A DNA stretch of 64,000 nt, from contig CAIVEW010000089.1 in assembly GCA_903905065.1 (NCBI GenBank), positions 1-64,000 of the forward strand. Direction: 5' to 3'. Shown here piece by piece: positions 23,701 to 53,223 of the stretch. The notes beneath the pieces were generated by a model, which was given only the letters and a program-made list of their open reading frames with translations, was not told where the DNA came from and did not search any database. Position 1 is the first letter of the stretch, and each line of letters begins with the position of its first letter. The position numbers were made by a program, and so were the translations under genes. The stretch comes from an uncultured Bacteroidota bacterium (lineage in GTDB: Bacteria > Bacteroidota > Bacteroidia > Chitinophagales > Chitinophagaceae).

Positions 23701-26700
23701 CCGCATCTGTAAGTTGGGTAACCAATCCCTGGCACACCGTAAGCATACCGGAGATAGCAGCCGGACTCGCATTAACTGTTACAATAGCTGTTGTTGAGCA
23801 GCCCGCCAGCGATGTGTACGTGACCGTAGCCGTTGTACCGCCGGTCACACCGTTTACTAAACCGGTACCCGAAACTGTAGCGTTACCAACGTTGCCACTT
23901 AACCAGGTTCCACCGCCCGCATCGGTCAATTGTGTTGCTGCCCCCTGGCAAACAGTTAGTGTGCCGGTGATCGCCCCTGGCAGCGCATTAACAGTTACCA
24001 CAGCTGAAGTGGAACAACCGGTAGAAAGTGTATAGGTGATACTGGAAGTGGTCCCGCCAACCAGGCCATTAACCAAACCAGATCCGGATATGGTGGCATT
24101 ACTAATACTACCGCTTACCCACGACCCGCCACCGGCATCCGAGAGCTGGGTTGTTTGGCCCTGGCATACAGAAAGGGTACCATTTATACTTCCGGGATTG
24201 GGATTAACTGTTACGATCGCGATGGCGGAGCAGCCACCCGGAGTTGTATAGGTTACCGCTCCGGTGCCAGAGGTCACACCGGCTGTTACATTTCCTGAGC
24301 CGTCTGTGGTTATAGCTCCGCTACTTGCCCAGGTGCCACCTCCTATATTACTGCTCAGCGCCGTGGTCAGATTTACACATACACTCAGATTGCCCAATAT
24401 AGCAGGCAGTGGATTTACGGTAACTGTAGCAGTATTATTACTTGCGCAGAAGCCGTTAGTCGCAGAAGCGGTATAGGTGACTACCCCCGCAGCAGGCAAC
24501 GCATAAACAGTATCCGTTTGTGTACCCGCAGTGTAAGCGGTACCTGCACCAGAATTAGTATAAAGGCCGGATACAGACGCCCATGTTGCAGCAACAGGAG
24601 TAGTATAGTCCACTCTTATGGTGTAGCCCAGCAGCGTTGCATTATTAGTAGTGAATGTAGTCGTGTTATAGGCAATAAGTGTCCACGTTCCGCTAGGCAC
24701 GGTAAACAATGTATCCCAGATATCTGTGTTTGCCGTAAAGCCAGAGACAGGGATAGCCCCACTCGTGGTATCCGCTTCAAAAGAGTTGGTGAACGGCGCT
24801 GAAGACGCGGAAAGCGTTAAAGTGCCAACCGAGCTTACAGTGGTATTGGTGAAATAGCTGAAAACGTTGGAAGGGCCTTTTTTGTTGATCAGATTAATTA
24901 TTTTACCATTAGGCGCCTGAAGGTTAAACTGATAATCAGATAAAAATAAAGAGCTGAAGTTAAGTGTCACGGCCACATCGGTGATGATAGCATTAGGCGG
25001 TAAGGAGACAGTAAGCGAGGTGTCTTCCACATCGTGGCTTGCATTTACTGTTTTAGACATCGTCCCGGTTGTCGCAATAAAAGTACCTGGCTGGGTGCCG
25101 GACGCAACAAGCATATCGGTTGGCCCGCTGGCACACAAAGAAGACGAAGAAGGAGACACAGAGATAGCAGATGGAGCATACAATACATTTAAAGTTGTAG
25201 TGACATTGTTAGTACAACCGCCCGTATACGTATAAGTTATCACTGCGCTTCCCGGCAACACAGCCGTAACATTGCCGGACGTGCCAATCGTGGCCACCGT
25301 GGTATTTCCGCTGCTCCAGGTACCGCCGGTCGTAACGTCGCTGAGCGATGAAACTGTAGAAAAACCGCTTAAACATATATTGGTGTTACCCCCTATTGCG
25401 CCAACTGTTGGCAGCGCATTTACGGAAACCGTTTTCGTGGTTGTACCCTGGCAAAGGCCGCTGGTATAAGTATATGTAACAACAGCAGTTGTTGCACCAG
25501 TAACGCCGGTAACTGTTCCGGTTGATGCGCCAACGATAACATTACTGCTCGTGCTGCTCCAGACGCCGCCGCTTACAGAATCGGTGAGTGTTATCACCGA
25601 ACCAACGCAGACGTTGGACAAACCAGAGATCAACGGAACATAAAGCGACGTATTGACGGAAGCAGTAAAATGCGATGAGTTTGAACAAGTACCCAAAGTG
25701 GAGGTCACAGTGTATACTGTTGTGGCACCCGGTTCGGCATACAAGCTACCGGCAGAAGTGCCGGTATAGGCAGTACCTGCACCAGCATCAGTATACAAGC
25801 CGGAAGTTGGCGCCCAGGTAACAGCAGTAGGCGGCACATAATAATATATACTGAGCGACCAGCCTTTGAGTGTATCCAGGCCGGTAGCCGAGCTGAAAGT
25901 TGCGGCTCCGATTAATGTCCAGGTGCCATTAGGTGCGCTATATAAACTTGACCACGAAGTAACGTTTGACCGATAGCCTGCTGTGATGCTGGCAGGAATG
26001 CCATTACCGAGGTTGGCTATGTAATCGAGGCCTGTAGTAAACAGACCACCTGGCGCTGCGCCGGAGGGTATTGTGGTGGAACCGTCAGAACCAAATGTAA
26101 TGTAACGGAAGTCGCTGATGCTGGAACTGCCTTGCGAGTTGGTCAATGAAATAGTGTTGCCATTGGGTGCCATCAGATTGAAGGCATAATTAAACTCTTT
26201 TGAGTTGCCCGCACCTGTGCCATGCCCGTTGATAGTAGCTCTGACAGCAGTAATGACCGCGCCAGCCGGTATGCCGCTAACGGAAATATTACTTGTAGTT
26301 GGTGTTACCGTAAACAACGGCATCGCAATCGGTCCGGTTGAATCTATAACAGGTCCTGTCACAGAGTCGCCGTAAGCCGCTACCAATTGCGCAGGACCTG
26401 TTGGGCAAACACTGACAAAAGAAGGTGAGAAAAATGGCGCAGGAGGTATAGGATTAACAGTCAGGATTTTGACGGCATTGCAACCTGACGGCATTATGTA
26501 CGAAATTGCACTTGTGCCGGCAGTTGACCCGATCGTAATAATGCCCGTTGAGCCTACGGCAGCTACAGCTGCATTGCTATTGCTCCAGGTGCCCCCGCTT
26601 GTTACGTCACTCAGTGAAAAAGATGACCCGCCAATGCACACCAAAGAAGACCCGAGTACCGGCGTTATCGGATTCACGGTTATCGTGGTATTTACCTCGC

Positions 26701-29700
26701 AGCTTCCGGAGAATGAATAACTGATTGTCGAAGTACCTGCGGACGCTCCGGTAACTGTACCATCTGTCCCCACGCCGGCTACAATTGGATTACTGCTGGT
26801 CCAGGTACCACCCGTAGTCGGGTCACTCAAAACAACACTTGATCCCTGGCAAACTGTGCCGGGCCCTGATATGGGAGATGGCGCTGCATTAATTGACACC
26901 GTCAGATTTGTGCTGCTGGCGCAGGTGCCATTTGTAGCCGAAATGGTATAAACAGTTGTAGCCGGCGGAGAGGTGTATATGGTGTTGGTAGAGGCACCTG
27001 AATAGGCCGTGCCGGATGTATTGGTGTATAAACCTGTTAATGGCGCCCATGTTATCGGCGACTGGTAAACGTAAGATACCGTAACGGACCATGAGGTTAT
27101 CGTAAAGGTTGAGTCCTTATAATTATCCATACCTGCTAACGTCCATGTGCCATTAGGGTTTGACGCTTCCAGCGGCGCCCACGATGTCGTTGTAACGGAA
27201 TAAGCAGAAGCAGTGAAATTTGCAACAACGCTTCCGTTTGAGGCAGCATACGTGCCCGTCCATGGAGCACCGGCCCCCGAATTTGGAATTGGTGCACTGC
27301 CTGCAGAACTTATCGTAGTATTCACAAAGTTCACTCCGCTATTTCCGCTGGTAGCAGAGAATAGGTTGATCACACTTCCGTTAGGGGCTTTGAGGTTTAA
27401 CTGTGCATCTCCGTCATAACTGCAGCTGGCGTTGAAGGTGGCTGCAATTCCCGTAACTGTCGCCCCGGCAGGAACACCGCTCACAGTAAGAGAAGTTGTG
27501 CCGGGTGTGACTGTAAAGCACGCTACGGACACCGGTCCGGATGATACCGTCGTACTACCAGGAATATTACCTCCCGATGCGGTGAGCAATTGCGGCGTAG
27601 TGCCAGCGCAAAATGACAACGATGGTGGGGAAGCCGTAACAGCAGTAGGAATGCTGTAAACGTTTACGGTTGTGTTTACATTTGTCGTACAGAAACCGTT
27701 ATTATAAGAATAAGTGATCACTGAGCTGCCTGGCAATATTCCGGTAACCGTGCCGAGAGAGCCATCAACAGTTGCCACTGCGGTATTACCGCTGCTCCAT
27801 AGACCGCCAGAGGTCGCGTCGCTTAGCGAGCTTACTACAGGCGAGCCGGAATAACAAATGTTGGGGTTACCCGCTATGGCCGAAACAACAGGAGTAGCGT
27901 TTACCGTAATGGTTTTGAAAACCGGGTTGCCCGTGCATCCGCCACTGGAATACTGGTAGGTGATAACAGCAGTACCCGGAGAGACGCCAATAGCGATTCC
28001 CGAAGCCGAGCCAATAGTGGCTGTCGCGTTTGCGCAGCTCCATGTCCCGCCCGATACTGAGTCGGTCATAGTAATACCAGAGCCAACGCATACAGCAGAT
28101 GCTCCCGAGATAACAGGGATATAAAGAGGAGTGCTTATTACAGCAACTACAGGTGAAAAACTGCTGCATGAGCCAATGGCGGCAGTAACATTGTAGGTCG
28201 TTGTTACTGTTGGCTTCATGTATACGCTGCCGGTACTGGTTCCAGCGGTATAATTTGCTGTAGCCAGCGAGTTTGTATACAAGCCTGTAGTACCGCCGAT
28301 CGTATTTGACCAGGTGACACTTGGGGGGATGATATAAGAAATGTTTATAGTCCATGCCTGGAGAATACCCTCCCCAGTGGCATAGTCGTTATCGGCAATA
28401 AATACCCAATTTCCATCAGGCACAGAATACAAGCCAGACCAGCTTGATGTACCTGCTGCAATCCCGGATATTAAAGATGAAGTTGACTCATTTGCCATAT
28501 AAAGATTACCTGACACCAGTGGTGCTGTCTGGGGCACTACACCTGCGGAGCCTACAGAAATATTCCTGAAATATTGCGTTGTAGATGAACCACCGGTTCC
28601 ATTAATGAGGTTTATTACCTGGCCGTTGGGCGCTTCAAGGTCATAGATCCAGTCACGATATTCAGAACCTGAAGAATTGGAATCCGCAAATGTTACCGAG
28701 ACATTAGTTATAACTGCACCGGGTGGTATCGAACTTATGTTTATGGTGTCCGTCGTAGCCGTGTTTGCAAGTATAGGTTTGTTTAAAGGCCCCGAATGTG
28801 AAATGGACACAGAACCCGTAAGTGTATCATGCGACGCAGATACAAGTTGTGCGAGGGTAGCTGTAGGACAAAGACTAACCAGCAGCGGCGAAGCGACGGG
28901 TACAGTTGGCGTTGGGTTTACAGAGACTGTAGCCACAGTATAACATCCGGTGGCAGGTATGGTATAAGTGATCGTCGTAGTTCCGAATGCGATACCACTG
29001 TATACTCCGGATGCAGAGCCGATGGTCGCAATACCTGTGTTGCTGCTGCTCCAGCGACCGACACCTGATGCATCACTCATGGTTGTGTTCTGCCCAATGC
29101 AGCCGATTGTTGCACCGGATATGCCTGCAGGCAATGGATTAACTGTCACAATACCGCCAGCTGAATTTACCGGAGAACCGATAGGAATACACCCTACTGT
29201 ACTTCTGTAATAAGTTGTTGTTGCTATTACTGAAGTAGTATAGGTTGCGTTAGTGGCGCCAGTAATAGGCGTCCATGACGAACCATCAGGCGATGACTGC
29301 CATTGATAGGTATTGCCCGTATTTGACGTAGCGCCAGTAAGGCTGACCGTAGCCGTGCCCGGGCCACAAAGCGCAGCAGGTGAAGCGGAGGCCGTCCCCG
29401 GGGTAGCCGAGCAATCCGGAGCGCCGGCTACGTAATCGCCTGAAAAAGATGTTGGATTCACACTGGTAGCGATTGACGCAAGGGGAAGTAATGGGGCCGT
29501 AGCTGTTGTAGTATTGACCGTTGGCAATACAGTTGACCAGCCGCCTCCCATGTACTCGCGGATGATGTAACCGGAATTGCTACCTAGACCACTCGTTATG
29601 TCACCATCGTTGTAGCTCAGGGACACATTTACAGAAGTTGGCGCGGGGGACACAGCCGAATTAGTTACCGTCCAGTAGCGGTCCACAAAGTTGGCGGTAT

Positions 29701-31864
29701 TTACGTAAGACGTCGCCATTGCCGGATGGGTACCAGCCGTTGATTTTACATTGATGCTGCCACTGTTCACACTGCCGCCATTGAAGGTTAGCATTACCGG
29801 TGAATAAGAGTTGTCGCCGACTTCGTAAAACATACTGGACACGCCAGCCGCAGGCATTGTTTTTGACAAATTACCGCTTACGTAGGACGCTGCATTTGCG
29901 CCCGTTACCGAGCCAGAAGCGCCTATGTTCAGGCTATAGGTACCGGTAGACACTACACCGTTCGTTAATGTAGTTATTCCTGTAACGTTCAAAGGAGCAT
30001 TTAGTGTAAGCCCGGCACCCGTATTGTTCATGGTCATGTTAGCCAGTATGTTGCCGCCGGTAACACTGGAAGTATACGTTTGTACGCCGGCGCCATTAAA
30101 CACCAGGGTACCATTCCCCATAACAAATAGGCCATTGTTCGTACTGTTATAAATAAAATTACCGCCAACGGAAACATTATTATTCTGGAAATTAAACGGG
30201 GAGGCCGCAGCAGCCGCTACAATCAGATTGCCTTTCACAGCAAACGTGACACCGCCCGTAGACGGGTCCACTTTTATCTGGTTGGTATTATTTATTATCA
30301 GGTTGTTTACAGACGCAACACAAGGACTTGAACTTGAACCACCGCCCCTGATATTACACGAACCACTGCAACATGTGTTAAGGCTTACAGTGCCCGTAAA
30401 ATTATAAGCCGAGGCTGCGCCGCCGCAGTCGAAGTTATTATAAACAGTTATCGTATCCCCGCCATCAGAAAACAAAGGAGTAGAGCCAGAAAGCGACATG
30501 ATAACACTATTCATGGCCACGATATTTGTATTTGACGCAAGGGAAAGCCCCCCCCCTGTTTTAGCAAATGAACTCCCCACATCCATGTTCCATATCGTAA
30601 GTGTCTTGCCATTGCCATTTATTACCTGCGGGTTATTGCCATAAGACACCAGGCTATAGCCAAGAGACGCATTAGCCCCGTTAAATGTAGCTGTACCTAA
30701 CAAACTAAAGTTGCCTGCGAATGTCAATTTTTCGATAGCACCTGGTAAGGCTACTGTACCATTGCTGAATGCTATGTTGCCGTATGCAGGAGTGACAATC
30801 GGGACATTTACATTTACCAGATTGGAAAATACCACTGTGCTCAAAGGGTCCAAATTACCGAGTGTAGGAAGTGTGTTATTCTGAAGCGTTAATGTTCTGC
30901 CAGCATTGACATCAATGGTTGCCGTTACACGGTTTGTTGATATCTTGAAATCCGTCCCGTCAACGATTATTTTTGACCCGGCCCCGGACACCGCCCATAT
31001 TGCGCCCAAAAGGCCAGGGTTGCCATTGGATATGTGGAATACCTGGCCATCAGAGACGAAATCAGGAGGATTGGACCCTGTGCCATTCGTATTTGTACCC
31101 CAGGTAGCGATATTATCCAAGTTGCCTGCTGAGAGCGAATAATAATCGGTTGTTGTGCTCGCCTGCGCTGTGATATTTGAAATTGAGAACCCTGGATGAA
31201 CGATGCCGCTCCCGGAAACATTTCTCGGTATCCACCGAAGCTCAACGATAGCTTTATTGGTACAAGCTGCAGGCAAAGTAACATACACAGTTGCAGGATT
31301 GTATTCGGTCGTAACTGCGGTATTGGTGTTTGTGAGTGCGTTGTTGCTATAGGTAGCCCCGGGAACGGTAGTAAAAGTACCGGTTGTGCCTATGCGGTAT
31401 TGCAGGTCCAGCTCGTCAATGTAGCCGCCGAGTGTCTGACCCTGCGTGGCTGCGGTATATATGAGTTGCACATTGCCCGATGTAACAGAGGTGGTATTGA
31501 GCGCAAGGCATAATGCATTAACCGTGGAAGAACTGGACAATATGCCAATTTTTTGTGCCAGATCTCCTACAAACGGAGAAACCGATGCGTTGGTTTGACC
31601 AGCCGTGCATGCAACACTGGATGAAAAAGCTGCGGTTAACACAGTTGTCGTCATCGGGCCCGGAACTGTGCCACCGAGTAGACCCGCCGGATAAGTAGTC
31701 GACCCGCCCAGCAGTGTTGAAAAACTCGAGGTTGAAGAATAAGGCAACCCCTGAGGTGCCGGATCCGTTTGCGCTGAAACATTAACAGCAATAAACTGTA
31801 ACGCACAAAGAATGGTAATCAGCGCAAAAGATTTCACCCGCGCACCCGGAAAGTATCGCAACAT
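20750..31864 (-). CDS. Giant T9SS-exported P-domain/BIG2 repeat protein (3,704 aa)
   Basis: The signal peptide covers residues 1-31 (cleavage after NVSAQ). Residues about 240-800 are strand-rich, Asn/Thr-rich and beta-helix-like, with a Cys cluster (NTCCSGSCNIRGGG). An Ig-like domain with YQWQSSPDG follows at about 820-900, then BIG2 repeats and four P-domain units (P-domains near 1040-1175, 1455-1595, 1845-2008 and 2281-2421), twelve tandem BIG2 repeats (about 2475-3335), three Ig-like domains containing YQW or YLW (about 3340-3610) and a C-terminal T9SS type A sorting domain from 3620 (LMPNPNKGLFTIKG to the end). It is expected to be exported through the T9SS and attached to or released from the surface. 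Its cassette order matches the leftmost giant gene. The promoter is unclear: only CACATTTG at 31887-31894 resembles a -7 box. The ligand is unknown. Confidence 0.93.
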   Translation of the reverse strand: MLRYFPGARVKSFALITILCALQFIAVNVSAQTDPAPQGLPYSSTSSFSTLLGGSTTYPAGLLGGTVPGPMTTTVLTAAFSSSVACTAGQTNASVSPFVGDLAQKIGILSSSSTVNALCLALNTTSVTSGNVQLIYTAATQGQTLGGYIDELDLQYRIGTTGTFTTVPGATYSNNALTNTNTAVTTEYNPATVYVTLPAACTNKAIVELRWIPRNVSGSGIVHPGFSISNITAQASTTTDYYSLSAGNLDNIATWGTNTNGTGSNPPDFVSDGQVFHISNGNPGLLGAIWAVSGAGSKIIVDGTDFKISTNRVTATIDVNAGRTLTLQNNTLPTLGNLDPLSTVVFSNLVNVNVPIVTPAYGNIAFSNGTVALPGAIEKLTFAGNFSLLGTATFNGANASLGYSLVSYGNNPQVINGNGKTLTIWNMDVGSSFAKTGGGLSLASNTNIVAMNSVIMSLSGSTPLFSDGGDTITVYNNFDCGGAASAYNFTGTVSLNTCCSGSCNIRGGGSSSSPCVASVNNLIINNTNQIKVDPSTGGVTFAVKGNLIVAAAAASPFNFQNNNVSVGGNFIYNSTNNGLFVMGNGTLVFNGAGVQTYTSSVTGGNILANMTMNNTGAGLTLNAPLNVTGITTLTNGVVSTGTYSLNIGASGSVTGANAASYVSGNLSKTMPAAGVSSMFYEVGDNSYSPVMLTFNGGSVNSGSINVKSTAGTHPAMATSYVNTANFVDRYWTVTNSAVSPAPTSVNVSLSYNDGDITSGLGSNSGYIIREYMGGGWSTVLPTVNTTTATAPLLPLASIATSVNPTSFSGDYVAGAPDCSATPGTASASPAALCGPGTATVSLTGATSNTGNTYQWQSSPDGSSWTPITGATNATYTTSVIATTTYYRSTVGCIPIGSPVNSAGGIVTVNPLPAGISGATIGCIGQNTTMSDASGVGRWSSSNTGIATIGSASGVYSGIAFGTTTITYTIPATGCYTVATVSVNPTPTVPVASPLLVSLCPTATLAQLVSASHDTLTGSVSISHSGPLNKPILANTATTDTINISSIPPGAVITNVSVTFADSNSSGSEYRDWIYDLEAPNGQVINLINGTGGSSTTQYFRNISVGSAGVVPQTAPLVSGNLYMANESTSSLISGIAAGTSSWSGLYSVPDGNWVFIADNDYATGEGILQAWTINISYIIPPSVTWSNTIGGTTGLYTNSLATANYTAGTSTGSVYMKPTVTTTYNVTAAIGSCSSFSPVVAVISTPLYIPVISGASAVCVGSGITMTDSVSGGTWSCANATATIGSASGIAIGVSPGTAVITYQYSSGGCTGNPVFKTITVNATPVVSAIAGNPNICYSGSPVVSSLSDATSGGLWSSGNTAVATVDGSLGTVTGILPGSSVITYSYNNGFCTTNVNTTVNVYSIPTAVTASPPSLSFCAGTTPQLLTASGGNIPGSTTVSSGPVSVACFTVTPGTTSLTVSGVPAGATVTGIAATFNASCSYDGDAQLNLKAPNGSVINLFSATSGNSGVNFVNTTISSAGSAPIPNSGAGAPWTGTYAASNGSVVANFTASAYSVTTTSWAPLEASNPNGTWTLAGMDNYKDSTFTITSWSVTVSYVYQSPITWAPLTGLYTNTSGTAYSGASTNTIYTSPPATTVYTISATNGTCASSTNLTVSINAAPSPISGPGTVCQGSSVVLSDPTTGGTWTSSNPIVAGVGTDGTVTGASAGTSTISYSFSGSCEVNTTITVNPITPVLGSSLVCIGGSSFSLSDVTSGGTWSNSNAAVAAVGSTGIITIGSTAGTSAISYIMPSGCNAVKILTVNPIPPAPFFSPSFVSVCPTGPAQLVAAYGDSVTGPVIDSTGPIAMPLFTVTPTTSNISVSGIPAGAVITAVRATINGHGTGAGNSKEFNYAFNLMAPNGNTISLTNSQGSSSISDFRYITFGSDGSTTIPSGAAPGGLFTTGLDYIANLGNGIPASITAGYRSNVTSWSSLYSAPNGTWTLIGAATFSSATGLDTLKGWSLSIYYYVPPTAVTWAPTSGLYTDAGAGTAYTGTSAGSLYAEPGATTVYTVTSTLGTCSNSSHFTASVNTSLYVPLISGLSNVCVGSVITLTDSVSGGVWSSTSSNVIVGASTGTVTGVTGATTAVVTYTYTSGLCQGTTTKTVSVNALPTVGAIGGNTNICLSGFSTVSSLSDVTTGGTWSSGNTTVATIGTSGNVTAVLPGSAVITYTYTGGCTNNVTTTLNVLYAPSAISVSPSSSSLCASGPTDMLVASGTQPGTFIATTGTMSKTVNASHDVEDTSLTVSLPPNAIITDVAVTLNFSSLFLSDYQFNLQAPNGKIINLINKKGPSNVFSYFTNTTVSSVGTLTLSASSAPFTNSFEADTTSGAIPVSGFTANTDIWDTLFTVPSGTWTLIAYNTTTFTTNNATLLGYTIRVDYTTPVAATWASVSGLYTNSGAGTAYTAGTQTDTVYALPAAGVVTYTASATNGFCASNNTATVTVNPLPAILGNLSVCVNLTTALSSNIGGGTWASSGAITTDGSGNVTAGVTSGTGAVTYTTPGGCSAIAIVTVNPNPGSINGTLSVCQGQTTQLSDAGGGSWVSGSISNATISGSGLVNGLVGGTTSSITYTLSTGCSTSAVVTVNALPGAITGTLTVCQGAATQLTDAGGGTWLSGNVGNATVSGTGLVNGVTGGTTATVTYTSLAGCSTTAIVTVNASPAAISGMLTVCQGLVTQLTDAVGGTWTSSNPGNGSVSGSGLVNGLVGNTTTTITFTDLNSCKTTAVVTVNPLPGNITGTLTVCQGLTTQLTDAGGGTWWNGASPNATVDGSGVVSGVNGGTTAAITYTLPTGCITKATVTVNPLPSAISGSGTVCLGAIITLSDAGSGAWSSGFSNVSIDGSGNVTGVGSGSATVTYTLGTGCYATKSIFVNPTPTAILGTDNVCVNATTSLSDAGEGAWTSSNPTNATVDLISGLVAGLVPGTTIITYTLPVTGCYTVQAVTVNALPSSILGTATVSVGYTTSLSDAGGGTWSASGDVSVGSTGLVTGLATGTGLVTYSLPTGCATTIIITVNATPPAITGVMNVCVSSSTTLSDAGAGTWASGSSNVSVGLSTGVVSGLSAGTALITFTFDAGGSVFATVTVNGLPDVITGPTVVCQDATITLSDDVTGGNWSSTENVSVSGTTGVVTGVNVGTAKVTYTLFTTGCYVTANVTVNPLPLSITGVAQVCVGSTTTLSDLTPGGTWSSSTTADGTVGTSGVVAGIAMGETTITYTAGGCYQTDAVVVNPLPNPISGTANVCAGVTTSLSDAGEGTWSSSNSNATIGSISGMVGGVTAGTATITYMLSTGCVVTTVVTVNAVVVPSVSISAAPGDTVCSGTSVLFTAAPTNGGATPAYQWSLNSAAITGATNSTYSYAPGNGDVISAIITSNAICAVPATAADAVTMTVITTDTSSVHISVAPGDTVCQGSFALFAAAVENGGTAPVYLWSVNGTQVGTGATYGYIPSLNDNVYCQLVSNQQCVATDTVASNHIVMRVDTSYVPIVEILATPGNAVGPLQADTFRAVVSNGGPVISYQWFVNTTLMSGATNEIFVASDFSNNDSVTCVVVSARPCGYASFNSVKITVLYEGLQQVALGSSNVRLMPNPNKGLFTIKGTLAAKSDEDVSVEITDMLGQVVYSNIIKAFSGNIDVPVSLNGDLANGTYLVNIRSANENIVLHFVIGR
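21850..24440 (-). repeat. Twelve tandem BIG2 repeats
   Basis: Twelve units of about 213 bp follow the fourth P-domain unit. They share the pattern I-x-G-x-x-x-V-C-x-G, L-x-D-A-G-G-G-x-W and V-T-V-N-x-L-P. One unit (near 22860-22920) has serine in place of the first cysteine. Five consecutive units near 23500-24200 (TLTVCQG type) are the most alike. Confidence 0.8.
24440..28900 (-). repeat. Four-unit P-domain cassette in the 3,704-aa protein
   Basis: Units start near 28890, 27620, 26420 and 25140, spaced 1.2-1.28 kb. Each has the leader S-P-x-x-x-S-x-C, a P-domain (N-L-x-A-P-N-G and G-T-W-T-L motifs), W-x-x-x-x-G-L-Y-T, and two BIG2 repeats except after the last. The layout mirrors 8690-13310 in the leftmost giant gene. 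Confidence 0.78.
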
Positions 31865-41033: not shown

Positions 41034-44000
41034 CTATTGTTCTGACTTCACAAATTTAGAAGTACGGATCAGTGCATCATTTTCATCGTAGATCATGATG
41101 AGGTACATACCGTTTGGAAGCGGGCTGATGTCTATTGTGGTTGCATCCTTCTGAGCGATAAGCGTTTTGCCATCTACACTCAGGAGGGAAACATTCACCT
41201 TCATCGGTGCATCGATATTGAGCGTCGAAGTAGCCGGGTTAGGGAATATCCGGATCTTGCCACCGTTAGCTACTGTACCAACGCCGGTACCGCCGCCGCC
41301 ACCACCGAGGATGTAAGCAGACGAAGTATCGGTGCAGCCATTGATATCGGTAACGACAACAGTGTAGTCGCCCGGAGTCGTTTCGTAGTAAGTGCTGCTG
41401 TTGGCGCCGGAGATCGCGATGCCATTCTTAAACCACTGATAAGCAAAGAACGAACCAGTATACAATACATTCGGAGCATTGAAGCCAATGATCGCATTCG
41501 GCTGGGCGGACACTACAGTACCACTGATGGTCATGCTGCAAGTACCGCTATTCACTTCGAGTGAGTAGGTGCCGGCCGTATCTGCGATGTAACCTGAGTT
41601 GGTAGCACCTGGTATGATGTTACCATTGAGTAACCACTGGTAGGTCATACCTGGTATGATCGCAGTAACGTGCATGTTCACAGCATTGCCATGACAAAGC
41701 GTCGCGGTAGCCGGAACCACGGCTACACCAGATGTAGCGGTAGATACTGTGAGGTTGTACGAAGCCGAAGCCGAACAGCCACCGCTGGTAACTGTATAGT
41801 AGATAGTAACTGTACCGCTCATGAGGCCTGTTACGACACCAGAAGCATCTATGGTCGCAACTGTATCATCGCTGCTGCTCCATACACCACCGCTGGTAGC
41901 ATCTGTGAGTGTAATTGTAGTACCGATACATACCGAAGTGAAAGAAGCAAATATGGGGCCCACAACCGGGGAAGCATTAATGGTCACTGTTGCAGAATCA
42001 ATAACGGAACCACATGCATTGCTCACTGTATAGAAGATAAAGTCTGAACCGGCGCCAACACCAGTTACGATGCCCGTGACAGGGTCAACGGTAGCCAGTG
42101 TAACATCATTGCTACTCCATACACCGCCGCTTGTCACGTTAGTTAATGCTGTTGTAGCACCTACACATACACTCATTGTTCCCGTTATAGGAGTTGTAAC
42201 CGGCATGGTAGTAACTGTGTCAGAGACAATCGCCGAAACCGAACAGCCAACACCATCCGTTACTGTATAGCTTACCAAAGTAGTACCAACCGCTAAACCG
42301 GATACTTTACCGAAGGCATCAACTGTTGCAATAGTGATATCACCCGTGCTCCATACGCCGCCGCCAGTGCCATCGGCAAGTATTGTTGAAGAACCTACAC
42401 ATTCAACCGGTGTACCTGTTATTGCAGCAACAACAGGAGGCGTATCAACAGTGTATGCTACCGAAACTGAGGAAGAACAACCTGCAGCGCTTGTGATCGT
42501 ATAGATAACATTTGCGGTACCGGATGTTACACCAGTAATAACTCCCGTTACCGGATCTATCGTAAGTATTGTTGTATCGCTGCTGCTCCATACACCACCC
42601 GCAGTTGCATCTGATACAGTTGTCGTGCCTGTGAGGCAGACATTGCCTGACCCGGAAATCGGAGAGATCGCAGGTAATGGATTCACAGTAACCGAAAGCG
42701 TTGCAGAAGCTGTGTTGCACAGGCCAGTAACTGTGTAGCTGATGGTCGCAACACCAGCACCGGCGCCGGTAACATTTCCTGAAGCGTCAACTGAAGCTAT
42801 AGTTGCATCGCTGCTGCTCCATACACCGCCTGCTGTAGTATCAGCAAGTACCGAGAGACCACCAAAGCAAAGAGACGCACTGCCTGTAATTGGTGCAACC
42901 GTAACCGGTGTGCTCACTGTATCTGGTGATACGGCAGAGCCTGGGCAACCGAATGAATTGGTCACCGTATAACTTATGTTTGCAATGCCTGCACCTGTTC
43001 CTGTAACGATGCCCGTAGTCAGGTTCACAGTAGCGATGGTTGCATCGCTGCTTGTCCATATACCACCGGAAAGTCCGTCACCAAGCGTAATGTTTGTACC
43101 CACACACTGTGAAGTTGGGCCGGTAATGGCTGGTACCACAGGGCTTGGATTGATAGTAATAATCTTACGTGCCTCGTTTGTTCCGCACATATTGGTCACG
43201 ACATAGAATATAGAGTCGATGCCCGGAGTAACACCGGAAACAATGCCCGGGCCCAACAGGATAGCGTTGTCATTGCTGGTAGCCCAGATACCACCGGCAA
43301 CAGTATCCGTAAGAGTAATAGCCGAACCAACGCAAACCGCGTTGATACCAACTATGATACCAGGATCGCCACCCGGAGACATTACGTTAACTATCTTCAC
43401 AGCCGAACCCGAACCGCAAGAAGTAGAAACTGTATAAGAGATCGGCACGGTACCATTAGCAACACCGGTTACCACACCACCAAGTACGGTGGCGTTACCG
43501 TTACCGGCAGTCCATACCCCACCCGGAGTAAAGTCAAGTAAAGTGATCGTTGTTCCAACACATAAACTGTCCGGGCCAAGGATAATGCCTGCATCACCCA
43601 CTGAATTAACCGTTATTATTTTTTCTGCGCTGATCGCACCGCAAGCTGCAGTGATGGTGTACAATATTGTATCCATACCCGCAGTAACACCGGTAACATG
43701 GCCAATGGCACTTATTGTAGCATTGCCATTTGTTGCACTCCATATGCCACCGGATGTAAGGTCTGTGAGTGCTATTGTAGCACCGACACAAACGCTGCTT
43801 GCGCCGGTAATGGTGCCCGCCCCAGGTGAAGGCATTACGGTGATCACCTTTGTTGTTGAGCCAAGTCCGCAACCGTTGATCACTGTATACTTGATAGTAT
43901 CCAGGCCAGCCGACACACCGGTAACGTCGCCAATGCCCGGTGTAACGGTAGCGTGTGCATTGCTGCTGCTCCAGGCTCCGCCGAGGTCAGCATCTGTAAG

Positions 44001-47000
44001 TAAAATGATATTGCCTACACAAACGGTAGACGGCCCACCAATAGGAGAAGGTGTTGCCGAAGCGTCGACATTCATTGTTGATGTGGCTGTATAAGTACCA
44101 CATGCCGTGGTGAGCACATACATCACTGTATCTAAACCAGGTGATACCGTGTTTACAACACCGGTAGAACCGTTGATAGTAGCATGGCCGTTTGTCATTG
44201 TCCAAACGCCACCGGGAGCAGAAGGATCAGATAATGTAACACTGGAACCCATACAAATACTTGTAGGGCCCAGGATAGTACCTGCGCCTAAAGTGGCAGG
44301 CACAATAGTAACATCCAGGGTAGTAGAAGAGCACGCACCGGGAACAGTATAAACGATTGTTTCAGGGCCTGCAGTGATGGCAGTAACCACACCTACTGGT
44401 GATATTACCGCATTGCCATTAGTCAGGCTCCAGGTACCACCGGTAGTGAAATCAAGATAAATGTCGAATGAACCGACGCATATGGTCAGAGGGCCGAGGA
44501 TGCTGCCGGAACCTGCTGTAGCGGATACCGTAACAGTAAGCAAAGCAGACACTGTGCCGCAACCGGTGGTAACCGAATAAGAAACCACGTCCGTACCAAG
44601 TGTAACACCGGTAACCAAGCCTGTACCTGAAACAGTCGCGTTAGCATTGCTAACACTCCAAACACCACCAGCGATTGAATCGGTCATCTGTATTGACGCA
44701 CCGGGACATATCTGGGTAGCTGCTGAAACTATAGATCCTGCATTAGGCGCAGGGAACACGGTAACCGTAGCGGTAGCGATACAGGTACCGATCGCATAAG
44801 TGATAGTGGAAGTACCTGCAGTAACACCGGTGATAACACCCGCGATCGCAGTAGCATTACCATTGCTGCTGCTCCATCCGCCGCCAGCGACTGCATCAGA
44901 CATTGTTATTGTAGCACCTGCACAGACAGTAGCCGAAGCCGGAGAAATAGCAGATGGGCTCGTAGCTACGTTGGCAACGATCGTTGCAGAGCAGCTGCCT
45001 AAAGTATAAGATATCGTAGAAGTACCGGAAGCAATTGCAGTAACCAGGCCGCCGCCTGAAACAGTAACATTACCATTGCTGCTGCTCCATGCACCACCTG
45101 CAACCGCATCACTTACAGTTGCCGTATTGCCGATACAAAGATTTATTGAAGCGGGAGAGATCGCTGCAACGCCTGTATTAACAGTTACTACTGTAGTCAC
45201 GACACAGGTACCGATAGCGTAAGAGATTGTTGTAGTACCAACGGCAACACCAGTAACAATACCGGTACCGCCAACATTGGCATTTCCATTACTTGCACTC
45301 CAAATGCCACCCGAAGTAGCATCTGTCAGATTAACTGTCGCGCCGGTACATACCGAAGCGCCAGCAGGAGTAATTGCTGAAGGTGCATTGTTTACCGTAA
45401 CGATGTTAGTAACACTACATCCCGAAAGTGTGTAAGAAATTGTAGCCACACCTACACCAACACCGGTAACTGTTCCGCCGCCAGTGATCGTAGCTACGCC
45501 AGTTGAACCAGAAGTCCATGCGCCGCCCGCAGTTCCATCAGTGAGATTAGCCGAACCACCTAAACATATGGTTGTAACGGCCGGATTGATCGGGCCAGGT
45601 GTCTGATTAATGGTCACAATTGCTGTCGAAGAGCACGTGCCGATAACATAAGAGATGACTGCCGTGCCAGCCGCAACACCGGTAACCACACCGGTACCGC
45701 TGACAGTGGCATTACCATTGCTGCTGCTCCATACTCCGCCGGTTGTCGCATCGGTAAGGTTTACCGTGCTGCCGGTACAAACGGAAGTGCTTGCCGGAAC
45801 AATAGCAACGGGAGCTGAATTTACCGTAACAACATCAGTTGCGGAACAAGTACCGATGGTATAAGAAATAGTCGCAGTACCTACACCGCTGCCGGTCACA
45901 ACGCCTGTTCCGGAAACAGTGGCAACACCTGTGTTGCTGCTGCTCCATGTGCCACCGCCGCTAACATCAGTCAGATTAGCTGTTCCGCCGAGGCAGATGG
46001 TAACTACCGCTGGTGTGATCGCTGCAGCGCCTGCATTCACAGTTACTGTGGCTGTTGAAAAACAAGCACCGATAATATAAGAAATGGTAACTGTACCTGC
46101 ATTAACACCGGTCACTACACCTGAACCGCTAACTGTAGCGTTACCATTGGTAGCGCTCCAGGTACCACCAGTAGTAGCATCCGTAAGATTTACCGTAGCA
46201 CCGGTACATACCGTTGCGGTAGCAGGAGTAATTGGCGAAGCCGCTGTATTAACAGTAGCTATCGTAGTTACAAAACATCCTGCTGTAATATAAGAAATGA
46301 CGGTGGTTCCTGTAGCGATACCGCTTACCAGGCCCGTACCTGAAATAGTTGCTACAGCGGTATTACTGCTGCTCCATGTGCCGCCCGTGGTCACATCCGA
46401 AAGCTGCAGCGTACCGCCAATACAAAGTGTCACAGGAGACGGTGTGATAGCTGCAACCGCAGGATCAACGGTTACCGCTACACTCACAGAGCAACCGCCT
46501 GCCGTATAAGAAATCTGATCGACGCCCGATGCCACGCCCGTGACAAGCCCACCGACCACTGCCGCATCTCCATTGCTGGCACTCCATGTGCCTCCTGTCG
46601 TTACGTCCGAAAGACTAAGCGTGTTACCAATACATACAACGCCCCCCGCCGGCGTTATTGCCGCCGGCGCAGTATTTACAGTGGCAATCGCCAATGCAGA
46701 ACATCCGCCTATAGTATAAGATACGGTGACCGTACCCGCTGCGAAACCGATAACAAATCCAGTTCCCGGTCCAACTCCTCCCACTTGAGCTATCGTACCG
46801 TCACTGCCACTCCAGGCACCGCCGGCAGTCGCATCAGAGACGTAGATCGTATCGCCCACACATACGGTGAGCGAAGCTGGTACAATGGCTGCAATTGCAG
46901 AAGTAACCGTAACTACCTGGGTAACATTACAAGAACCCACCGCATAGGTAATAACTGCCGTGCCAACAGAAAGACCAGTAACCACACCTGAGCCCGAACC

Positions 47001-48377
47001 AACAGTGGCTACGCCGGTATTACTGCTGCTCCAATCACCGCCGGTGGTGGCGTCCGTTAAATTCGTCGTGCCACCTTCGCAGACTGTAGGCGTACCGGTT
47101 ATTACCCCAAGTGAGTTTATTGTAACATTGAAACCATAGGTTGACTGGGTATTTATCGGGCAGCTATTATCAGTATATATCAAATAGAACGTGTAAGTCC
47201 CGGGCGCAATACCTGTAGAAGTCCAATGGAACGTAGCCTGTGGAGTGGGTGTTCCGTTATTAACGTAGGTCATCGTTGCACCGGGAGGAAGGCCAGTGGA
47301 AGTTACCGTAATATTAGCGGTACCTCCGGATTCAACAGGATCCATCTGCAGGGTGAACGCGCCGGTATTCGCGCAAATGTGGTAGTTCAGGCTGTCCACG
47401 ATAAGGCCGCTGCCCGTAGAAGATACGATGCCTCCCCAAGGCGGCGTCTGCGTACACGTCTGCACCAGGAAGGTCATTTCGCGCATCATGGTACCCGCAA
47501 ATGTGTCATTGCGGTATTGCTGAATGTTATAAACGACAAGTGATCGCTGCACCGCATTCGGAGTGAAGTTAAGCTGTCCGGTTAGAGAATTGAATGTCTG
47601 AGAACCAGCAACAACTGATATTGGAGTCGTGGCGCTATAACCAGCCAGGTACGTTACACTTGGCGTCGTAGAACTACATGCAGCTCCTCCGGAACCGTTT
47701 AGCCCCGCCGTTAGTAAGAAGTTCAAACTATCCGTCGAATACGGGCTGGCACCCGGGTTATAAGCATCGGCATTATTGAGGCAGTAATAAGGGGTAGGCT
47801 CCACTGCTAAAGTTGGAGAAGTAGAATTGAAATAAGTATTGTCAAGCGTATCTACCATTGTGGTAAACGTAGTGCCCGGATTGTTGATGTTGGTGATAGA
47901 CGCGGCACGTCCTGCAGCGGTAGAGCCACCGCCGCCCATGTAGCCTGCAAAAATAAACCGCCATGCGTGCGAAGCGCCGCTTAGCGTCACCGTGGCATGA
48001 TAGGTGAATTTCTTGATACCGGTTATTGTGTACGAGGTATCCGTGCAGGTTGTGAGCCCGGTATCGGCAGCACATACCTGTGCCGACAAAATATTTGAGT
48101 TTGCCGCATCTACCGAGCAGGAGAGCGTTGCAAATAATGTTGTCCCGTTATACACGCAGACCTGGGGATGCGCAGTTGCCAACGTCTGGAATGCCGCGTA
48201 TGAAGCCGCGCCACAGTTACCATACGCCACAACAGTCACCTGGTATTGGTTGCCGCTTATCCATTGGTAGCTTAGGTCCATACCAACAAGGTGGCTAGCA
48301 AACGCGCCAACACTGGTCAATAAAAAAAGCCCTGATAACAGCAGGGAGCGCAGATAAAGGGGTAAGTTTTTTTTCAT
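41034..48377 (-). CDS. Giant T9SS-exported BIG2 repeat protein (2,447 aa)
   Basis: The signal peptide covers residues 1-27 (ending GAFA). The mature head starts SHLVGMDLSYQWISGNQYQV and runs to about 310; this head type is widespread in Bacteroidota surface and gliding-associated proteins. A linker with Ig-like character follows, then 24 tandem BIG2 repeats (about 425-2195), two Ig-like domains with YQWLLNG and YQWFKNG (about 2200-2350), a poly-Gly spacer (GGGGGG) and a T9SS type A sorting domain from about 2371 (IRIFPNPATSTLNIDA to FVKSEQ). It is expected on the cell surface or released. There are no P-domains or propellers, unlike the other two giants. Most repeats contain paired cysteines. 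The upstream 428 bp is shared with the divergent sod gene. The ligand is unknown. Confidence 0.93.
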   Translation of the reverse strand: MKKNLPLYLRSLLLSGLFLLTSVGAFASHLVGMDLSYQWISGNQYQVTVVAYGNCGAASYAAFQTLATAHPQVCVYNGTTLFATLSCSVDAANSNILSAQVCAADTGLTTCTDTSYTITGIKKFTYHATVTLSGASHAWRFIFAGYMGGGGSTAAGRAASITNINNPGTTFTTMVDTLDNTYFNSTSPTLAVEPTPYYCLNNADAYNPGASPYSTDSLNFLLTAGLNGSGGAACSSTTPSVTYLAGYSATTPISVVAGSQTFNSLTGQLNFTPNAVQRSLVVYNIQQYRNDTFAGTMMREMTFLVQTCTQTPPWGGIVSSTGSGLIVDSLNYHICANTGAFTLQMDPVESGGTANITVTSTGLPPGATMTYVNNGTPTPQATFHWTSTGIAPGTYTFYLIYTDNSCPINTQSTYGFNVTINSLGVITGTPTVCEGGTTNLTDATTGGDWSSSNTGVATVGSGSGVVTGLSVGTAVITYAVGSCNVTQVVTVTSAIAAIVPASLTVCVGDTIYVSDATAGGAWSGSDGTIAQVGGVGPGTGFVIGFAAGTVTVSYTIGGCSALAIATVNTAPAAITPAGGVVCIGNTLSLSDVTTGGTWSASNGDAAVVGGLVTGVASGVDQISYTAGGCSVSVAVTVDPAVAAITPSPVTLCIGGTLQLSDVTTGGTWSSSNTAVATISGTGLVSGIATGTTVISYITAGCFVTTIATVNTAASPITPATATVCTGATVNLTDATTGGTWSATNGNATVSGSGVVTGVNAGTVTISYIIGACFSTATVTVNAGAAAITPAVVTICLGGTANLTDVSGGGTWSSSNTGVATVSGTGVVTGSGVGTATISYTIGTCSATDVVTVNSAPVAIVPASTSVCTGSTVNLTDATTGGVWSSSNGNATVSGTGVVTGVAAGTAVISYVIGTCSSTAIVTINQTPGPINPAVTTICLGGSANLTDGTAGGAWTSGSTGVATITGGGTVTGVGVGVATISYTLSGCSVTNIVTVNNAPSAITPAGASVCTGATVNLTDATSGGIWSASNGNANVGGTGIVTGVAVGTTTISYAIGTCVVTTVVTVNTGVAAISPASINLCIGNTATVSDAVAGGAWSSSNGNVTVSGGGLVTAIASGTSTISYTLGSCSATIVANVATSPSAISPASATVCAGATITMSDAVAGGGWSSSNGNATAIAGVITGVTAGTSTITYAIGTCIATATVTVFPAPNAGSIVSAATQICPGASIQMTDSIAGGVWSVSNANATVSGTGLVTGVTLGTDVVSYSVTTGCGTVSALLTVTVSATAGSGSILGPLTICVGSFDIYLDFTTGGTWSLTNGNAVISPVGVVTAITAGPETIVYTVPGACSSTTLDVTIVPATLGAGTILGPTSICMGSSVTLSDPSAPGGVWTMTNGHATINGSTGVVNTVSPGLDTVMYVLTTACGTYTATSTMNVDASATPSPIGGPSTVCVGNIILLTDADLGGAWSSSNAHATVTPGIGDVTGVSAGLDTIKYTVINGCGLGSTTKVITVMPSPGAGTITGASSVCVGATIALTDLTSGGIWSATNGNATISAIGHVTGVTAGMDTILYTITAACGAISAEKIITVNSVGDAGIILGPDSLCVGTTITLLDFTPGGVWTAGNGNATVLGGVVTGVANGTVPISYTVSTSCGSGSAVKIVNVMSPGGDPGIIVGINAVCVGSAITLTDTVAGGIWATSNDNAILLGPGIVSGVTPGIDSIFYVVTNMCGTNEARKIITINPSPVVPAITGPTSQCVGTNITLGDGLSGGIWTSSDATIATVNLTTGIVTGTGAGIANISYTVTNSFGCPGSAVSPDTVSTPVTVAPITGSASLCFGGLSVLADTTAGGVWSSSDATIASVDASGNVTGAGAGVATISYTVTGLCNTASATLSVTVNPLPAISPISGSGNVCLTGTTTVSDATAGGVWSSSDTTILTIDPVTGVITGVTSGTANVIYTITSAAGCSSSVSVAYTVDTPPVVAAITGTPVECVGSSTILADGTGGGVWSTGDITIATVDAFGKVSGLAVGTTLVSYTVTDGVGCSVSAIVSDTVTTMPVTTPITGTMSVCVGATTALTNVTSGGVWSSNDVTLATVDPVTGIVTGVGAGSDFIFYTVSNACGSVIDSATVTINASPVVGPIFASFTSVCIGTTITLTDATSGGVWSSSDDTVATIDASGVVTGLMSGTVTIYYTVTSGGCSASASYNLTVSTATSGVAVVPATATLCHGNAVNMHVTAIIPGMTYQWLLNGNIIPGATNSGYIADTAGTYSLEVNSGTCSMTISGTVVSAQPNAIIGFNAPNVLYTGSFFAYQWFKNGIAISGANSSTYYETTPGDYTVVVTDINGCTDTSSAYILGGGGGGTGVGTVANGGKIRIFPNPATSTLNIDAPMKVNVSLLSVDGKTLIAQKDATTIDISPLPNGMYLIMIYDENDALIRTSKFVKSEQ
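41780..47110 (-). repeat. Array of 24 BIG2 repeats in the 2,447-aa protein
   Basis: Units of about 213-225 bp share the pattern I-x-P-A-x-x-x-V-C-x-G, L-x-D-A-T-x-G-G-x-W-S-S-S-N, G-x-V-T-G-V and I-S-Y-x-x-G-x-C. The N-terminal half (about 47000-44750) has compact units with a short I-G-x-C ending. The C-terminal half has a longer ending such as TVSNACGS. The array therefore seems to consist of two subfamilies expanded separately. Confidence 0.83.
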
Positions 48378-51021: not shown

Positions 51022-51516
51022 CTATTTCAATGTGACAAAATAATCTTCTTTCGCGGGTCGGCAAATGAGGTCGTCAAAATTAATTGAAAATATCTTTTTT
51101 ACGATCTGCCTGATTTCGTTGTAGTCATCGGGTTTTTGAATATAAAGGTTGGCACCCAACTTGTAAGTATTGTCGATCTGGTCCGGGAATGCTGATGTGG
51201 AATAGATGATCACCGGAATATTGATCCACTTTTCATTTTTTCTGATCACTGCCAGGCTTTCAAAACCATTTCTGCAGGGCATATTCAGATCAAGGAAGAT
51301 CAGATCGGGCAGGCTACCGGGTGCAGATTCCAAAATGCGTATCAAATCTGCTCCATCATAGGCCCGGGAAATATCCAGGCCAGGTACGATGGACTGCATG
51401 GCTTCTTTGAAGAAATCAAAGTCATCGGCATCATCATCTGCCAAAATGATATGAAACGGCCTGCTCTCCGCTATCTGGCCCAATAAATATCTGCTGTCTT
51501 CGCTCATTATTTCCAT
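51022..51516 (-). CDS. Single-domain response regulator (CheY/Rcp1-like)
   Basis: 164 aa. One receiver domain spans about 20-145. The acidic pocket is D27-D28-D29, the phosphorylation site is Asp76 in LIFLDLNMP, the switch residue is Ser106 and the conserved lysine is Lys128 (YIQKP). There is no output domain; a short tail (about 146-164) follows. It is the likely partner of the histidine kinase 69 bases upstream on the same strand. It resembles Rcp1-type regulators paired with phytochrome-like kinases. As it lacks DNA-binding ability, it probably acts by protein contact or passes phosphate onward. Confidence 0.93.
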   Translation of the reverse strand: MEIMSEDSRYLLGQIAESRPFHIILADDDADDFDFFKEAMQSIVPGLDISRAYDGADLIRILESAPGSLPDLIFLDLNMPCRNGFESLAVIRKNEKWINIPVIIYSTSAFPDQIDNTYKLGANLYIQKPDDYNEIRQIVKKIFSINFDDLICRPAKEDYFVTLK

Positions 51517-51585
51517 TTGTCTTTTCTCATTCGCTATCGTAACTGTGTTTTATTTTCAGAAGGCCAAAGTACCCAGGCCGGAAGG

Positions 51586-53223
51586 TCAGATCGCTATACC
51601 ATTTATCTTCTGGTCAAAATTTCCCTGTGATACCGGAAGCGTAATAATAAAAGACGCCCCCTCACCCGGTGAGCTTTCCACGCTGATCAAACCATTGTGG
51701 TTTTCGACGATCTTCTTGCAAATAGCGAGTCCTATGCCGGTGCCTTCATACATGCCGCTCAGGCGCTGAAAGGCTTCAAAAATACGATCTGCGAACTTCG
51801 GGTCGAACCCAATACCGTTGTCAGTGATGCGGATACGCACAAATTTTTCGCGATCCCAGAACTTATTTTCTTTCCAGCCAGTGAACTTATAATGCGCTTT
51901 TATATGGCCGGGAGCCGATATCTCGAAACCATTTATTATATGCGAGGATATCGTGATCTCCGGAACTACGCCATCTTTTTTAAACTTGATGGAATTGGCA
52001 ATAATATTCTGAAACAATTGCCCGATCTGCGTGTCATTGGCCTCTATAACCGGCAATGTAGAAACATGGACAACGGCCTTGTTGTTCTCTATCAGCACCT
52101 CCATGTCGGTGAGTACGGAAGCCACAACAACGTTCAGGTCGGTTCGGGTGAAAAGAAAAAGTGAATCCGCTGAAGAAATACGCGAAAAGCTTAGCACATC
52201 CTGGATGAGTTTTTGCATGCGCGCTGATGCATTTACGATTTTATCCATGTACTCACGCGCCTTTTCGGAAGTAAGGTCCTGACCGGGATCCTGCAACCGG
52301 GATACGAATGTTCTGATCTTTCTCAGCGGCTCCTGCAGATCGTGGGACGCGACATAGGCGAATTTTTCAAGTTCATCGTTCTTCGACTCAAGCGCCGCGG
52401 ATTTTATCAGCAACTCCTGCTCTATTTGTTTCTGCGCTGTTACATCCTGCCCGGTACCAATAATTTTCAGCACATTGCCATCTTCGCTCGTCACCACCTC
52501 CCCTCTTGTATGCATGGTCTTCACCAGTTCCTGCGGTGTGGTGATACGATGATAGAAGTCAATAAATTTCTTATCTGCAACCGACTGCGTTAACATCGCA
52601 TCGGCGTTGATGCGATCCTGAGCATACATGCAACCGAGAAACTGCTCATAGGATATGCGAGACTCCTGCAACCCGTATATACGCACCAGGTTATCGGAAA
52701 AAACAAAGTCATTGCTGCGAAGCTCCCACTCCCAGTGTCCCATTTTAGCGATTTCCTGGGCTTCGTTCAGTAAACGGATCTTAACCTTCAATTCCTCTTC
52801 CGCCTTTTTTCGCTGCTCCACTTCGGCCTCCAGCTCTTCGGCAGTTTTTAAAGAAAATGCCACCGGAAGGAGCCTGATGAGGTAATAAACAGTTGCCCAG
52901 CTAATGACCCCTGTGATAAAACGCACCAGCGCATTGAAACGGTAGATGGGGTACCAAAATGTTATTGCATCGAGCAAATGCGTAAAACCGCAGGCAAAAA
53001 TAAACGCGGCAAACAAAAAATAGACCTTATGAAACCGGGCATTTGCACGAGACGCAATGTACCTCACTATGATCACAGGCATAGCGAAATAGGCAGAAAA
53101 AATGAGCAAGTCGCTGATTATATAAAGCCAGCCATGAAACTCAGTCCACTTCCCGCAATGCCACCTTGGAGGCCACAAAGACGTATCAAATAATCCTCCG
53201 AAAAAGTCGGTAAGTTGGTGCAT
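51586..53223 (-). CDS. Histidine kinase with ethylene-receptor-like membrane sensor, PAS, HisKA and HATPase domains
   Basis: 545 aa. Residues about 32-120 form three membrane helices like the ethylene-binding domain of plant ETR1 and cyanobacterial Etr1: SD at 37-38 (Asp38), AYFAMP at 44-49 (Tyr45, Pro49), and the copper-ligand pair Cys78/His82 in ACGFTHL. The third helix ends RLLP before a coiled coil (about 125-150). A PAS domain covers about 150-265 (MGHWEWEL to GTGQDVTAQK). HisKA has the phospho-acceptor His293 in FAYVASHDLQEPLRK, and a HATPase domain with NSIKFK, ITDNGIGFDP and GTGIGLAICKKI follows (about 390-535). It probably senses a small hydrophobic ligand, possibly ethylene, through Cu(I), and signals to the receiver protein encoded next. 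Ligand identity is inferred only. Confidence 0.92.
   Translation of the reverse strand: MHQLTDFFGGLFDTSLWPPRWHCGKWTEFHGWLYIISDLLIFSAYFAMPVIIVRYIASRANARFHKVYFLFAAFIFACGFTHLLDAITFWYPIYRFNALVRFITGVISWATVYYLIRLLPVAFSLKTAEELEAEVEQRKKAEEELKVKIRLLNEAQEIAKMGHWEWELRSNDFVFSDNLVRIYGLQESRISYEQFLGCMYAQDRINADAMLTQSVADKKFIDFYHRITTPQELVKTMHTRGEVVTSEDGNVLKIIGTGQDVTAQKQIEQELLIKSAALESKNDELEKFAYVASHDLQEPLRKIRTFVSRLQDPGQDLTSEKAREYMDKIVNASARMQKLIQDVLSFSRISSADSLFLFTRTDLNVVVASVLTDMEVLIENNKAVVHVSTLPVIEANDTQIGQLFQNIIANSIKFKKDGVVPEITISSHIINGFEISAPGHIKAHYKFTGWKENKFWDREKFVRIRITDNGIGFDPKFADRIFEAFQRLSGMYEGTGIGLAICKKIVENHNGLISVESSPGEGASFIITLPVSQGNFDQKINGIAI

Follow-up and report, generated by a model that had tools for sequence, protein, structure and literature searches.

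Does a membrane-bound histidine kinase of a Bacteroidota bacterium sense ethylene through a copper site of the kind known from plants? This question is raised by two neighbouring genes in a 64,000-nucleotide stretch of DNA from an uncultured member of the Chitinophagaceae; this whole stretch is called the window in the following. One gene encodes a kinase with a three-helix N-terminus, the other a small response regulator. The original prediction had taken the pair for an ethylene or other small-molecule sensing pathway outside plants and cyanobacteria.

Gene pair and domain architecture

The two genes were found on the minus strand where they had been predicted (Table 1), with the regulator 69 bp downstream of the kinase. 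Kinase residues 30-124 matched the Pfam ethylene-binding family ETR1_N (PF25487) over profile positions 2-96 of 97 with 102.1 bits (E 2e-29), the cut-off of the family being 27 bits. A profile search of the own genome returned the ETR1_N match with E 3.0e-30, while the same family search gave a match in none of 14 control genomes. The match of the kinase is far beyond chance, and the predicted homology to the ethylene-binding domain is borne out by this profile comparison. The remaining architecture was also recovered as foreseen: PAS, HisKA and HATPase domains follow in this order as PAS_3, HisKA and HATPase_c, and the CheY-like regulator has Response_reg (residues 23-139) as its sole Pfam match, with no output domain found by Pfam.

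Table 1. Positions of the kinase, the regulator and their features in the window
Feature	Position	Strand	Basis
Ethylene-receptor-type histidine kinase, 545 aa, ETR1_N - PAS_3 - HisKA - HATPase_c	51586..53223	-	
ETR1_N (ethylene-binding) domain, residues 30-124, three predicted transmembrane helices	52852..53136	-	Pfam PF25487 profile
C78-G-F-T-H82, matching Cys65 and His69, the copper ligands of ETR1	52978..52992	-	alignment
W21-H22-C23-G24, directly ahead of the first transmembrane helix	53152..53163	-	alignment
PAS_3 domain, residues 175-257	52453..52701	-	Pfam, E 9e-7
HisKA domain, residues 285-351, phospho-acceptor His294	52171..52371	-	Pfam and motif
HATPase_c domain, residues 397-532	51628..52035	-	Pfam, E 1.6e-22
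Stand-alone CheY-like receiver regulator, 164 aa, phospho-acceptor Asp76	51022..51516	-	Pfam and motif

Catalytic motifs are intact in both proteins. The kinase carries H294 in SHDLQEPL, NIIANSIKF at 406, DNGIGFD at 468 and GTGIGLA at 494; the receiver carries the acidic stretch ADDDADD from residue 26, D76 in LDLNMP and K128 in IQKP. Besides H294, these kinase motifs represent the N-, G1- and G2-boxes. Pfam found no photoreceptor domain in the kinase, and a DUF2922 match of 16.9 bits stayed below the Pfam cut-off. In NCBIfam, the best 25 of 81 matches of the kinase and the best 25 of 69 matches of the regulator were all generic and below the cut-offs. A search of phage records gave no match.

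Elsewhere the minus strand of the window carries a giant reading frame at 1-20301, which runs off the window edge (at least 6767 aa), and a second one at 20750-31864 (3704 aa). A repetitive, secreted-looking protein of 2447 aa with many GGxWSSSN-like repeats is encoded at 41034-48377 on the same strand; its C-terminus presumably resembles a type IX secretion sorting domain.

Residues and predicted fold of the binding site

To compare the binding site, the kinase N-terminus was aligned with the N-terminus of AtETR1 and with bacterial relatives. The alignment comprises 48 distinct bacterial genes, the window gene included. We took D25, Y32, I35, P36, I62, C65 and H69 of AtETR1 to be the seven ethylene-binding residues. 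Six of them are identical in the window kinase (D25=D38, Y32=Y45, P36=P49, I62=I75, C65=C78, H69=H82), and the seventh, I35, corresponds to M48, an exchange that appears conservative. The original prediction had listed Asp, Tyr, Ile/Met-Pro and the Cys78/His82 pair, a wording that covers M48 and agrees with the alignment. According to PMC11819568 seven residues are required for ethylene binding in AtETR1; PMC6586836 names C65, H69, I35, P36 and I62, and PMC12643061 names Asp25, Cys65 and His69. AtETR1 K91, involved in receptor output according to PMC11819568, aligns to R101 of the window kinase. In this alignment, helices 2 and 3 of the window kinase are joined by a loop with three residues fewer than its AtETR1 counterpart.

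Across the 48 bacterial genes the counterparts of Y32, P36, I62, C65 and H69 are invariant. The D25 position is Asp in 44 genes, Asn in three and a gap in one (L018, an open piece with a late start). At the I35 position Ile is found in 40 genes, Met in five and Leu in three, the five genes with Met being the window gene and its four nearest relatives. The K91 position is occupied by Arg (24 genes), Lys (20) or another residue (4). These residue counts omit L033, which lies above the family cut-off with 51.5 bits but escaped the single-sequence search, as well as L011 and L012 (also the wider stretches L057 and L058), which apparently duplicate L034 and L035. Genome G496 and three below-cut-off matches from the class of genome G312 were left out of the alignment. 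As a separate observation, L065 and L077 hold a 1567-aa open frame that combines an ethylene-receptor-like domain with a kinase part; it has Asn at the D25 position and a receiver-only gene after it.

An AlphaFold2 model of the N-terminus, calculated from 14 aligned N-termini, was weak (mean pLDDT 68.1, pTM 0.51). It predicts long helices at residues 29-57, 64-90 and 94-117 and a short N-terminal helix at 2-9; the hydropathy peaks of the N-terminus lie at 40-49, 71-82 and 107-116. In this low-confidence model C78 and H82 share one helix, the second long one, in line with the original prediction, and since they are four residues apart helix geometry would place them on the same face. D38, Y45, M48 and P49 are predicted to lie within the first long helix. 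A sequence search for a solved-structure template for residues 1-147 gave a cytochrome oxidase subunit as its only match, which at E 0.045 is at chance level and was rejected.

Relatives, receiver partner and phylogeny

The own genome contains one ETR1_N gene. The search among relatives covered 60 genomes, counting the own one, and found such a gene in 12 of them; in a draw from the phylum it was 21 of 395. Within the genus, where some genomes are incomplete, nine of 35 have one and 26 gave no match. A draw from a different Bacteroidota class, to which G312 belongs, gave matches in 15 of 195 genomes at E 0.001 and in 12 over the cut-off. Named loci with relatives include Paracnuella, Cnuella, Niastella, Paraflavitalea, Ferruginibacter, Puia and Flavisolibacter; two of 15 loci belong to Caloramator, with a match to the kinase part only. 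The closest named loci are L034 (81% identity) and L035 (74% identity), both from metagenome bins that we take to be lake-derived from their names. A plant source of ethylene is therefore not obvious.

The gene neighbourhood was compared for eight window genes, including the kinase-regulator pair, at ten loci. All eight genes are present in L034 and L035. L053, a stretch of 5.5 kb, has five of them and L056 has four; in L056 the window's next two genes downstream of the pair were not detected, though the stretch continues for 3 kb. Several of the same neighbours are retained around the pair in the four closest relatives. At L036, L037, L049, L050, L051 and L054 only the kinase, or the kinase with a regulator, is kept.

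A stand-alone receiver frame of less than 200 aa lies directly downstream on the same strand in 24 of the 47 ethylene-binding-domain genes with flanks; these counts omit L076, the wider stretch of L033. In three genes a receiver is part of the kinase itself; L081, one of the three, is also followed by a longer regulator. In the remaining 20 there is no receiver, the receiver lies only further off or upstream, or the gene is cut or split. L056 is among these 20, its kinase being split across two frames with the regulator after the second piece; counting it, kinase and downstream receiver occur together in all five members of the window's nearest clade. By sequence, the own genome has 46 regulator-like places, the regulator itself included. 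A receiver-only partner is therefore ordinary here and another partner is possible. From adjacency and intact motifs we infer that phosphate would be passed between kinase and regulator.

In the tree the window gene groups with support (100/98) in a set of 27 Bacteroidota rows that are mostly of Chitinophagaceae type. Another 13 Bacteroidota rows are nearer to the three Pseudomonadota rows, with 88/87 at the fork, and the last two, L017 and L019, form a long branch of their own. The plant sequence sits on a very long branch with unsure placement; the trees do not include L018. Separate arrivals of ETR1_N in Bacteroidota, which these three places might have indicated, were not upheld: when all 42 Bacteroidota rows were held together against five plasmid-borne rows of other phyla, a single clade was not rejected (p-AU 0.139). 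Genome G056 of the same order has two ethylene-binding-domain kinases, L055 and L059, one from each of the larger tree groups. Plasmid p2 of Novosphingobium sp. ES2-1, which was typed as conjugative, encodes an ethylene-binding-domain kinase and a regulator (L082) near a type II Cas9 gene.

Comparison with known receptors and candidate signals

The closest described counterpart is AzoEtr1 of Azospirillum brasilense. As given in its report (PLoS Genet 2025, PMC11819568), it consists of a three-helix ethylene-binding domain, PAS and histidine kinase with 525 aa in total (545 aa here), is followed just downstream by the receiver-only AzoRR-Etr1 of 135 aa (164 aa here), and binds ethylene with its first 130 residues when expressed in yeast. 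The same text has AzoEtr1 keeping all seven binding residues and Lys at K91, where the window kinase has Met (I35) and Arg (K91), and the Azospirillum pair overlapping slightly, whereas the window pair is 69 bp apart. Ethylene binding was measured for AzoEtr1, while the window protein, from a different phylum, was compared by sequence. The domain encoded on a plasmid of A. brasilense Sp7 is 35% identical to the window domain over 117 residues, and a receiver-only ORF comes after it; we take this plasmid gene, at which no feature is annotated, to be AzoEtr1.

SynEtr1 of Synechocystis is likewise a bacterial ethylene-binding histidine kinase, with a phosphorelay to the response regulator Slr1213. 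According to PMC11819568 it is bifunctional for ethylene and light and its regulator activates small-RNA transcription, in contrast to the window pair with neither a Pfam photoreceptor domain in the kinase nor a Pfam output domain in the regulator. Plant ETR1 shares the ETR1_N fold and the copper residues, with 29 of 95 aligned positions identical over window residues 30-124. Plant receptors have GAF where the window kinase has PAS, and some have a fused receiver (PMC6586836 and PMC5285503); they signal mainly via a ser/thr kinase instead of phosphorelay (PMC11819568). Homologues in early diverging fungi have also been published (PMC5285503). Receptors for ethylene are thus already documented beyond plants and cyanobacteria, AzoEtr1 being one example, and the Pfam family covers the domain. 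The novelty originally claimed for such a pathway was overstated, given that AzoEtr1 shares this layout and its binding of ethylene has been measured (PMC11819568). In the titles and abstract openings found in our literature search no Bacteroidota ethylene receptor was described; one may well be listed elsewhere.

Taken on homology, the window kinase is probably a Cu(I)-dependent ethylene-sensing membrane kinase of the bacterial ethylene-receptor kind that signals to the adjacent regulator. This reading is supported by the domains, by six identical binding residues and the invariance of Cys and His in all 48 genes, by the identity to the presumed AzoEtr1, by the gene pair with its partly kept neighbours and by C78 and H82 in one predicted helix. 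M48 in place of I35, R101 in place of K91, the weak structure model, the patchy occurrence in the genus, the lack of a stand-alone receiver downstream in about half of the genes and a plant source of ethylene that is not obvious count against it. From the relatives we infer the roles of copper and ethylene, the signal direction and the phosphotransfer. Within the three transmembrane helices C78 and H82 would provide a Cu(I) site, with D38 nearby, and ethylene or a similar small olefin would bind to the copper. Binding would alter, and probably lower, the activity of the cytoplasmic PAS-kinase part, in keeping with what has been argued for SynEtr1 and predicted for AzoEtr1. This would in turn affect how phosphate passes from H294 to the regulator's D76. 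Because no output domain was found, the regulator may act through protein contact, not DNA binding, or as a phosphate sink.

The stretch directly ahead of the first helix may bear on which ligand is sensed. The sequence WPPRWHCGKWTEFHGW (kinase residues 17-32, window 53128-53175, minus strand) is nearly invariant across 14 close relatives, a conservation that is biased, since one search peptide that fetched relatives lies in it. Its His-Cys pair is invariant in all 14, of which 13 were fetched with six search peptides, one containing the motif; L006 and L016, which came from the Pfam search instead, carry it as well. Among the 48 bacterial genes Cys occupies the column of C23 in 45 and His that of H22 in 26.

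The main rival to ethylene sensing is another ligand at the same site: with unchanged fold and copper site the signal could be copper, another small alkene or a gas, with PAS as a second input. We consider this rather unlikely. The invariant His-Cys pair would fit it, as would Met at the near-pocket I35 position in the five genes of the nearest clade, Leu in three others, and an own genome in which ACC deaminase was not seen (best match 20 bits versus a cut-off of 392). However, Cys and His of the copper pair are invariant as in proven ethylene binders, and the presumed AzoEtr1 also has the pre-helix Cys, though preceded by Val instead of His. With still lower probability, a Chitinophagaceae-centred branch would have an extra metal or redox site made of His and Cys and would respond to a signal that adds to ethylene or replaces it; its proposed marks are W-P-P-R-W-H-C-G ahead of the helix, mostly Arg at K91, and Met, Leu or Ile at I35. 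It is highly improbable that the domain is a relic or repurposed, with the transmembrane part as mere membrane anchor and a kinase responding via PAS: patchiness in the genus (9/35 genomes), Asn for Asp25 in 3/48 relatives and split or short relatives (L056 spread over two frames, L018 interrupted by an in-frame TGA, L060 of 199 aa) would agree with it, but in L036-L040 and L046 the N-terminus is 66-70% identical over 147 residues versus 41-52% for the best segment, in these loci almost the full protein length, while an unused anchor would drift.

If the favoured ethylene-sensing kinase does bind ethylene, Bacteroidota would join Pseudomonadota, cyanobacteria and plants as organisms to which this gas is a signal, possibly in free-living and not only in root-associated bacteria. 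The small gene pair, with its partly common synteny in the nearest relatives, makes a tractable test case.
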